The notes under the pieces were generated by a model. It had not been told where the DNA came from. It worked only from the letters and a program-made list of their open reading frames with translations, and made no database searches. From positions 1 to 56,131 of the forward strand of contig SFCB01000172.1 in the NCBI GenBank assembly GCA_004367505.1: a DNA stretch of 56,131 bases. Direction: 5' to 3'. This document shows, in pieces, positions 39,614 to 42,098 of the stretch. This DNA is from Chloroflexi bacterium OHK40. GTDB taxonomy: Bacteria > Chloroflexota > Chloroflexia > Chloroflexales > Chloroflexaceae. Every line of letters starts with the position of its first letter. The stretch's first letter is position 1. Made by a program: the position numbers and the translations under genes.

Positions 39614-40204
39614 ATGAGCGACCAGTACACCGAGCAGGATACTGAGCGTGCGCGGCAGGCCGAGCGTTCGGCCGCAGGCATCGAGACGCGGCAGCTGCGG
39701 CTACCCGCCGGAGCGGGCTACGCGGCGGCCAGCCCGGCGGCACCGGCCAGGTCAAACGTGATTGGCGTCGGGCTGGTCGTGCTGGGCATACTCCTGTTGC
39801 TCGGCCGCATCGTGACCCTGCCGCTTGAGCTCGAGGCCGGCATGGTGCTGCTCACGATCGCCTCAGTCTTCTACTTCTTCGGCTTCTGGCGCCGGATCTA
39901 CGGCCTGATCATCCCGGGGAGCATCCTCGCCGGGTTGAGCGTGGGCGTCACGCTCGCCGATGTGACCAACGGCGTATCCGTGCTGTGGGGGCTCGCTCTG
40001 GGCTTCCTGGCGATCTACGCCCTCGGCTCGGCGCTGTTCAAGCAGCGTCACCCATGGCCCGTGATCCCGGCGGTGATCCTCTTCGCGGTCGGCACCATCG
40101 TCGCGGTCACGAGCCTGCCCAGCTTATTTGGCGCCACCCTCATCTGGCTGCCGCTCCTGCTGATTGGCGCCGGGCTCTACCTCGGCCGGGGCCGCCAGCC
40201 TTAA
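39614..40204 (+). CDS. Multi-helix membrane protein of unknown function
   Basis: A 196-residue protein with a polar N-terminus of about 50 residues and then six closely packed hydrophobic segments (for example VIGVGLVVLGILLLLGRIV, MVLLTIASVFYFFGFW, PVIPAVILFAVGTIVAVTSL). It ends in LYLGRGRQP. GGAGG lies four bases before the ATG. The design is like small DUF5668-type or phage-shock-associated membrane proteins, but I cannot assign it. Confidence 0.78.
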   Translation: MSDQYTEQDTERARQAERSAAGIETRQLRLPAGAGYAAASPAAPARSNVIGVGLVVLGILLLLGRIVTLPLELEAGMVLLTIASVFYFFGFWRRIYGLIIPGSILAGLSVGVTLADVTNGVSVLWGLALGFLAIYALGSALFKQRHPWPVIPAVILFAVGTIVAVTSLPSLFGATLIWLPLLLIGAGLYLGRGRQP

Positions 40205-40414
40205 CGAACGCAGTGAGAACCGGGCCCCGGAGACCCGGCTACGGCCCAGCCGTTCCGAGCCATGCGGTAGCGTATGCTCGGACAAGAACGCCAGACCGCA
40301 GGCCACCTCCTTGCACAGGGGGCGGCCTCTCTGTGCGGCACCTGGATCTTTTGCACAGGCACCTGCCAGACAAGATTGGCAAGAATGACCATAGCTGATC
40401 GGGAAGAATTTCCC

Positions 40415-40420
40415 TATACT
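40415..40420 (+). promoter_or_regulatory. -10 element upstream of amt
   Basis: TATACT lies about 185 bases before the amt start. No good -35 is present at 17-18 bases. A sigma-54 site was looked for and not found. Confidence 0.45.
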
Positions 40421-40426
40421 CGCACC

Positions 40427-40605
40427 AGACTGTAAACGCCACCGAACACTGTAACGCAACCACGCCGTTCCAGAGGTTCATCGCCAACGAAGGCGAGGAG
40501 CCTGGTTGCAGGTGGCATCCAACCGGGATGTTGGCGACGAAGCCCCCACGATCTTGCACATCGTGGGGGTGCTTTGCATGGCGCATTGTATAAAGGGAAC
40601 TGACG
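40427..40605 (+). promoter_or_regulatory. Structured amt leader, candidate riboswitch or attenuator
   Basis: Four helices can be drawn in order. A 7-bp helix (GCAACCA 40456-40462 with TGGTTGC 40503-40509) encloses a hairpin (TCGCC 40481-40485 with GGCGA 40492-40496). Next is CATCC 40516-40520 with GGATG 40526-40530. Last comes a perfect 10-bp hairpin (CCCCCACGAT 40543-40552 with ATCGTGGGGG 40560-40569, 7-base loop), 36 bases before the start codon. The last stem is terminator-strong but lacks a U-run. The layout, folded domain then stable stem, fits a cis-acting RNA. It does not match the glnA motif or other classes I know. Confidence 0.5.
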
Positions 40606-41835
40606 ATGGACGCGATCAGTGGTGCCGACACAGCCTGGATCCTCATCTCGAGCGCGCTGGTGATGCTGATGACTCCCGGACTGGCATTCTTCTACGGCGG
40701 CCTGGTACGCCAGAAGAACGCCCTCTCGACGATCATGCACAGCTTTGTGATGCTCGGGCTGGTGAGCGTACTCTGGGCACTGATCGGCTACAGCCTGGCC
40801 TTCGGGCCGAGCATCGGCGGAGTGATCGGCGGGCTGGACTACTTCGGCCTGAACGGGGTGGGCGCTGAGCCAAACGACGCTTACGCGGCCACCATCCCAC
40901 ACCAGGCCTTTATGATCTACCAGATGATGTTCGCGATCATCACCCCGGCGCTGATCTCGGGGGCCTTCGCTGAGCGCAAGCGCTTCAAGGCCTTTCTGAT
41001 CTTCTCGGCGCTCTGGCTGCTGCTCGTCTACGTCCCGGTGGCCCACTGGGTCTGGGCAGTGGGCGGCTGGATCCGCACCCTCGGGGCGCTCGACTTCGCC
41101 GGTGGCACGGTGGTTCATATTACCTCAGGGATCTCGGCACTCGTCTGCGCGCTGGTGCTGGGCAAGCGCAGCGGCTACGGCAAAGAGCCGATGGAGCCCC
41201 ACAACGCCACGTACACCATCCTGGGCACGGGCGTGCTCTGGTTCGGCTGGTTCGGCTTCAACGCCGGCAGCGCCCTCGGCGCGGGCACACTGGCCGTGGC
41301 AGCCTTTGTGAACACCCACCTGGCGGCAGCGATGGCGGCCCTGGCCTGGATGACGGCAAGCTGGGTGCGTCACAAGCGCCCCAGCGTGCTCGGCGCGGCG
41401 GCCGGCGCGGTGGCAGGCCTGGTGGGCATTACCCCCGCCGCCGGCTTTGTCACTCCGATGGCCGCGATCATTATTGGCTTCCTGGCCGGGGTGGGTTGCT
41501 TCGCGGCGGTGGAACTGGTGGTGCGAGGGCGGGTAGACGATGCCCTGGATGTCTTCGGTGTCCACGGCGTTGGCGGGATCATCGGCGCCCTGGCCACCGG
41601 GATCTTCGCGACCACGACGGTCAATCCAGCAGGCTTCGACGGCCTGCTCTACGGCAACCCCGGCCAGCTGCTCACCCAGCTCATTGCCGTGGTGGTCACC
41701 GCTGTGTATGCCGCTGCAATCACCTACGTACTGCTGAAGGTGATCAACCTGGTGGTCGGGATTCGCGTCTCCCCCGAGGAAGAGGCCCGTGGCCTGGACA
41801 CGAGCCTGCACGGCGAGACGGCCTACCAGATCTGA
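40606..41835 (+). CDS. amt: Ammonium transporter (Amt family)
   Basis: A 409-residue, 11-helix channel for ammonium. The twin pore histidines are present: the first in GGTVVHITSG and the second in DVFGVHGVGG. Family stretches include LMTPGLAFFYGGLVRQKN at the start and GAFAERKRFKAF. There is no long signal sequence. AAGGGA precedes the ATG at normal spacing. A GlnK/PII gene usually follows amt, but here an 87-base gap leads to a 39-codon ORF and a terminator. Confidence 0.96.
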   Translation: MDAISGADTAWILISSALVMLMTPGLAFFYGGLVRQKNALSTIMHSFVMLGLVSVLWALIGYSLAFGPSIGGVIGGLDYFGLNGVGAEPNDAYAATIPHQAFMIYQMMFAIITPALISGAFAERKRFKAFLIFSALWLLLVYVPVAHWVWAVGGWIRTLGALDFAGGTVVHITSGISALVCALVLGKRSGYGKEPMEPHNATYTILGTGVLWFGWFGFNAGSALGAGTLAVAAFVNTHLAAAMAALAWMTASWVRHKRPSVLGAAAGAVAGLVGITPAAGFVTPMAAIIIGFLAGVGCFAAVELVVRGRVDDALDVFGVHGVGGIIGALATGIFATTTVNPAGFDGLLYGNPGQLLTQLIAVVVTAVYAAAITYVLLKVINLVVGIRVSPEEEARGLDTSLHGETAYQI

Positions 41836-42042: not shown

Positions 42043-42064
42043 GCCTGCCCGTTGCCTGACACTG

Positions 42065-42098
42065 GCCCCTCCTCACAGCGCTGAGGAGGGGCTTTTTT
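42065..42098 (+). terminator. Intrinsic terminator of the amt unit
   Basis: GCCCCTCCTCA pairs perfectly with TGAGGAGGGGC around a 6-base loop and is followed at once by six T residues. This is the clearest intrinsic terminator in the window. Confidence 0.95.

Follow-up and report, generated by a model that had tools for sequence, protein, structure and literature searches.

A conserved structured leader with an attenuator-like layout precedes the ammonium transporter gene amt in Chloroflexi bacterium OHK40 and eight relatives

We analysed a 56,131-nt stretch of DNA from Chloroflexi bacterium OHK40 (contig SFCB01000172.1 of assembly GCA_004367505.1), here called the window, in which the ammonium transporter gene amt is preceded by a long, foldable leader (Table 1). 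The initial annotation had described a folded leader with all of its arms visible between a TATACT box and amt, and every arm that it named is indeed present in the sequence between that box and the start codon. Beside the enclosing helix there is an extra pairing, GCCACC with GGTGGC (40438-40443 with 40511-40516). The hairpin that we call P1 combines a 5-bp top stem (TCGCC/GGCGA) with a lower stem (GGTTC/GAGCC), and the last, 10-bp hairpin is perfect and ends 36 bases before the ATG. As a whole, the leader is only marginally more stable than expected by chance: its fold reaches -65.7 kcal/mol, compared to -57.6 +/- 4.4 for shuffled sequences (z -1.84), and 8 of 200 shuffles were as good. Because the whole-leader fold is only somewhat better than its shuffles, structural support was taken from relatives.

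Table 1. Features of the amt leader and gene in the window, with the evidence for each.
Feature	Position	Strand	Basis
probable amt promoter -10 box, TATACT	40415..40420	+	sequence; TATACT/TATAAT in 7/8 relatives
enclosing helix, GCAACCA/TGGTTGC	40456..40509 (40456-40462 with 40503-40509)	+	sequence and fold; window only
P1 hairpin, hexaloop AACGAA at 40486-40491 (A1, G4)	40475..40502	+	covariation over six leaders
small hairpin between P1 and P2, CATCC-AACCG-GGATG	40516..40530	+	fold
P2, GGC-GACGAA-GCC, loop G1 and G4	40533..40544	+	pattern in 9/9 leaders
terminator-type hairpin, 10 bp, 7-nt loop	40543..40569 (40543-40552 with 40560-40569)	+	covariation over nine leaders
weak U-tract, TGCTTTGCAT	40570..40579	+	sequence; 5-8 T in a row in eight relatives
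amt, ammonium transporter, 409 aa	40606..41835	+	TIGR00836, 488 bits (cut-off 343)

A promoter scan gave no sigma-70 match at the TATACT box. In the seven relatives that have it, the same motif, or TATAAT, stands 210-281 nt ahead of the start codon, and in the window 191 nt ahead of it; none was found near P1 in the remaining relative, G033. An inverted repeat, GGGAA-GAAT-TTCCC (40401-40414), abuts the box in the window and is not seen in the aligned relatives. Three leaders of the genus labelled g2 (L083, L084 and L090) all have TGGATCNATTGACTGTAG some 40 nt 5' of their TATACT box, a spacing that would be odd for a -35 box; it is possibly an activator site. At the other end of the gene, about 230 bases past the amt stop codon, stands a strong intrinsic terminator (42064-42093; 12 bp, then TTTTT).

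The genome of the window (G000; 6.9 Mb in 301 contigs) is one of 12 among 41 genomes of the family that carry a close Amt (62-100% identity), other full-length Amts being only about 34-42% identical. The leader DNA itself had no BLAST match outside G000 in these 41 genomes. Alignment brought out a common core just before amt in nine leaders, namely that of the window, three from g2 and five from a further genus, g16, so that three related genera are represented; the core is absent before the amt of G020, G038 and G031 (Amt identity 62-74%). A covariance model built from the nine cores (R1) and run against 158 genomes of the class returned the nine amt leaders at 59 bits or more, all directly upstream of amt. 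Other matches, at 20 places in 17 genomes, scored at most 30.5 bits in a search whose stricter filters lost some weak matches, and were not counted as instances. Sixteen of the 20 were checked, for the P2 core only: it was present in five, three times within perfect GGCGGCGAAGCCGCC-type hairpins, and these candidates were rejected.

Conservation is clearest at the downstream end. Over the nine leaders, 98.9% of the cells of the terminator-type hairpin are paired and 6 of its 10 pairs have changed on both sides. In 500 shuffles neither this proportion of paired cells nor the covariation score was ever attained, and six double-changed pairs came up three times; slid controls stayed at or below 45% of cells. 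In eight of the nine leaders the hairpin is followed by 5-8 T, compared to only TGCTTTGC in the window. The attenuator suggested by the initial annotation is thus supported by the eight relatives, where the 10-bp hairpin has the classical form of an intrinsic terminator and covaries strongly. Just upstream of it, P2 has the form GGC(GRYGAW)GCC in 9/9 leaders, preceded by a T (TGGC), and is the most conserved element of the leader. Its stem is invariant and hence gives no evidence of covariation; the loop varies at positions 2, 3 and 6 and has G4 in all nine. In every leader the 3' arm of P2, GCC, is also the base of the terminator hairpin. A conserved terminator ahead of the first codon and, overlapping its 5' base, a further conserved element make up the arrangement typical of attenuators, and we consider it highly likely that this leader is a real, conserved attenuator of amt. 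The functional unit probably runs from P1 through the terminator, about 40475-40579 in the window. The hairpin itself presumably terminates transcription, least surely in the window given its poor U-tract.

Whether P2 forms before the terminator has been made was predicted from folds that use assumed transcription starts. Its probability exceeded 0.5 in three of the nine leaders (0.62 in the window and above 0.9 in two others) and was at most 0.18 in the remaining six; in g16, RNAalifold favours a different small helix there. Across G000 there are 16 copies of the P2 pattern TGGCGRYGAWGCC, compared to 10 for a reverse-read control, and among the eight of these sites with loci a terminator was seen by eye only at that of the window.

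P1 carries a hexaloop of the type AAYGNN in six of the nine leaders, those of the window and of g16, the five g16 loops being AATGGN. Counted over these six, and leaving aside the three g2 leaders, which have no such hairpin, 7 of 9 pairs are double-changed and 88.9% of cells are paired. None of 500 shuffles reached either value, and slid controls gave at most 4 of 9 pairs and 51.9% of cells. For this count all six pieces were cut relative to the loop at one common distance, which places the row of the window by its loop, and the five g16 leaders are close relatives whose cells are not independent events. RNAalifold recovers P1 unaided in the five g16 leaders. Within single leaders, a hairpin of the quality of P1 arose in 1 to 42 of 1000 shuffles; for that of the window (5 bp, A1/G4 hexaloop, in the 75 nt before P2) it was matched or beaten in 7 of 1000. 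In the three g2 leaders there is no A1/G4 hexaloop hairpin within 75 nt before P2. They have instead a conserved hairpin whose pentaloop contains AAYG, 108-110 nt before P2, with a further hairpin in between; both show some double changes, over three sequences only.

Upstream of P1 the picture changes. Nothing in the eight relatives is recognisable as a counterpart of the leader 5' of about 40470, so the conservation of the enclosing helix cannot be counted: it is there in the sequence and fold of the window, and no homologous sequence can be recognised in these relatives. The small hairpin likewise has no hairpin counterpart in the eight relatives, and its CCAACC recurs in two of the three g2 leaders. 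Of the arms named by the initial annotation, the last hairpin and P1 are the ones that covariation in relatives supports. In G033, the region upstream of amt (L086:1060-1350) is, by eye, repeated DNA up to about 15 nt before P1, and the unit from P1 to the terminator is intact, again by eye, despite the adjoining repeats.

Two hexaloop hairpins, the second embedded in a terminator, are the design of targets of ANTAR-domain proteins as described in two papers (PMC3369931, PMC8934654), the first of which also places such targets upstream of ammonium-transporter and PII genes (Ramesh 2012). The amt leader resembles these RNAs (EutV/eut, NasR/nasF, AmiR/amiE) in several respects: loop 1 has A1 and G4 in 6/9 leaders, loop 2 has G4 in 9/9, the second hairpin shares its 3' arm with the base of an intrinsic terminator in 9/9, as in the type known from Firmicutes and Proteobacteria, and the leader precedes a nitrogen gene in a genome that encodes ANTAR proteins. 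Yet it departs from them in others. Loop 2 begins with G, A1 being found in 0/9 leaders; the P2 stem has just 3 bp, the minimum for the tandem hairpins of an ANTAR target; and the g2 leaders have their pentaloop hairpin 108-110 nt upstream, with no nearby hexaloop. The linker between P1 and P2 is 36 nt long in the window (40497-40532) and 36-44 nt in the five g16 leaders, versus 2-25 nt for known targets, a range given for Actinobacteria in PMC8164766, and 5-12 nt for eut in PMC3369931. Two further results bear on these departures: changing A1 impaired EutV activity (PMC3369931), and 20 nt added to the linker abolished EutV antitermination (PMC8934654). The actinobacterial survey of ANTAR RNAs allowed for one variation in the hexaloops (PMC8164766).

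Our best reading, to which we give a probability of roughly 0.45, is that amt is controlled by transcription attenuation, with a REC-ANTAR RNA-binding protein as the reader of the leader. By default, RNA polymerase would meet the GC-rich terminator upstream of amt and much transcription would stop there. Upon a nitrogen signal, a kinase would phosphorylate a REC-ANTAR response regulator, which would then bind the P1 hexaloop and subsequently that of P2. With P2 held, the GCC at the base of the terminator would be occupied, the terminator prevented and amt made; P2 can block the terminator in this scheme because both use the same GCC. These steps are modelled on the anatomy of the leader, on the ANTAR proteins that the genome encodes and on the mechanism published for EutV. 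The leader would thus work like an ANTAR target, and we do not file it as one, because A1 of loop 2 and the linker length fall outside the definition, P2 is weak alone, the A1/G4-R1/G4 pattern matches a single related group, genomes devoid of the element have ANTAR genes too, and the DNA around glnA and PII genes showed no second target.

ANTAR domains occur in 41/41 genomes of the family and in 0/14 control genomes, E. coli included. This co-occurrence does not discriminate, since 32 family genomes without the element have ANTAR genes as well. G000 encodes three ANTAR proteins. Pfam identifies two of them as REC-ANTAR, one of which aligns nearly full-length with the EutV entry 6wsh/6ww6 (E 5e-38), and the third looks like a REC-ANTAR protein from its sequence. 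The ANTAR protein of contig 251 gives a near full-length alignment with both EutV and Rv1626 (PdtaR). Following the EutV numbering in PMC8934654, residues R142, K143, E160, Y/F at 164 and R175 are kept in all three proteins and M172 with N173 in two, as compared by eye; none of the three keeps R177, which is T, S or K, and two have Q for R168. The contig-251 paralogue differs from EutV in having R and D at M172 and N173 (by eye).

We also scanned 1.07 Mb of DNA from the family and class, a total that sums both strands and counts overlapping loci repeatedly, for pairs of hairpins followed by a terminator, with any loop. This yielded 31 matches. Loops A1/G4 then R1/G4 account for five, which are the five g16 amt leaders and hence one related group; as first loop, C1/G4, with 8, is commoner than A1/G4. 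The scan misses the leader of the window, whose U-tract is too weak. No second target turned up in the DNA surrounding 21 glnA and 5 PII-gene matches from eight genomes, and among the open-access titles and abstracts on ANTAR or amt leaders that were listed, none describes the element. A wider set of 109 amt leaders from many phyla, taken without the window, included 17 with a terminator-like hairpin. Five of the 109, those of g16, have A1/G4-R1/G4 with a terminator; the full A1/G4-A1/G4 pair with a terminator is found in one other, from Nitrospira, with a 27-nt linker and in a genome with one ANTAR match. This leader (L060:2740-2845) consists of GGGAC-AATGCT-GTCCT, ACGGAC-AAAGGC-GTCCGT and an overlapping terminator-like hairpin, and by its sequence is a candidate canonical ANTAR target.

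The same P2/terminator exclusion could serve other readers. As a structured leader of a nitrogen gene, the element is comparable to the glutamine (glnA/glutamine-I) riboswitch and other Rfam leaders, and a small-molecule riboswitch for glutamine, 2-oxoglutarate or ammonium could use the invariant GGCGRYGAWGCC and the AAYG-loop hairpin as part of its site and act through the same terminator. The conserved letters in the loops of P1 and P2, the multibranched structures that single-sequence folding gives around P1 for some leaders of g16, such as that of G033, and the lack of a canonical PII in what was found in G000 would all fit. But unlike those known leaders it has no match at gathering score: a search with 4227 Rfam families returned none in the window, a search of 40200-40700 at lax thresholds found one sRNA match at chance level (E 5.7), and the 12 amt loci gave nothing relevant. 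The initial annotation had failed to fit the leader to the glnA glutamine motif, and none appeared in the searches of the window and amt loci; its proposal of a riboswitch with a folded ligand domain is not supported, the upstream domain being unconserved between genera and without a match to any Rfam riboswitch even at lax thresholds. A closing helix for P1, taken from single g16 folds, was tried over the five g16 leaders and found no support, with 1 of 5 pairs double-changed and 76% of cells paired, a value that 88 of 500 shuffles reached. On this one candidate helix, then, no multi-helix aptamer with covariation emerged. There are, moreover, few conserved unpaired bases for an aptamer, the DNA 5' of P1 is not conserved between genera, and the nine instances found in all are every one at amt. 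A riboswitch is hence rather unlikely, and a new class of them, limited to a few related Chloroflexota genera where canonical GlnB/GlnK was not found (in G000, the genome examined), sensing ammonium, glutamine or 2-oxoglutarate and attenuating amt, is distinctly so; the reader of this RNA is likely a protein, of the ANTAR type, rather than a ligand.

Attenuation through a different RNA-binding protein, through an RNA or by an intrinsic RNA switch would explain why terminator and P2 are conserved yet the A1 of loop 2 and the linker escape the ANTAR definition. It is unlikely, albeit the least so of the alternatives, given that no other candidate reader is indicated and that six leaders show the ANTAR-type A1/G4 in loop 1. 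Hairpins of the kind GGCGGC-GAA-GCCGCC with T-runs nearby are found elsewhere in the family (L166, L177, L180) and the U-tract of the window is weak, as could be expected if the terminator were unregulated and did no more than reduce or insulate transcription of amt, with P1 and P2 incidental. This reading is improbable: P1 covaries, and the P2 loop letters and the 5' GGC are preserved, although dispensable for a terminator. Ribosome-mediated attenuation through a leader peptide is very improbable: short frames do run through P2 in single leaders, for instance from an ATG at 40528 in the window, but by eye there is no common start (the distance from ATG to GGC is 5 nt in the window but 10 nt in g2), a TGA in G032 breaks the TGG-CGR frame that g2 and g16 have, and the idea was rejected for want of a frame shared among leaders.

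Canonical PII controls Amt elsewhere, and the initial annotation had stated that no PII gene is present in the window. Genome-wide, this roughly holds. A profile search with PF00543 matched two genes of G000 (L112 and L113, on contigs 47 and 53), and neither matched an NCBIfam PII model at cut-off. Both directly follow Sbt_1 bicarbonate-transporter genes, two pairs that look SbtA-SbtB-like. Among the seven relatives searched for the family (all but G002), four had no match. The guessed PII gap may thus be real, and control at the RNA level is a reasonable way to fill it, although absence from draft genomes is weak evidence. If amt were attenuated through an RNA-binding protein that is itself controlled by phosphorylation, this would account for how amt could respond to nitrogen supply without canonical PII. 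Should a REC-ANTAR protein be the reader, natural targets go beyond the accepted rules of A1 in both loops and a short linker; otherwise the element is a new class of attenuator. In the three remaining relatives the PII-family matches lie in frames longer than 430 aa, and the one examined, from G001, is a CBS-DUF190 protein. The gene for this PII-like protein (L215:1408-2715) lies directly upstream of amt on the same strand and ends about 370 bases before it.
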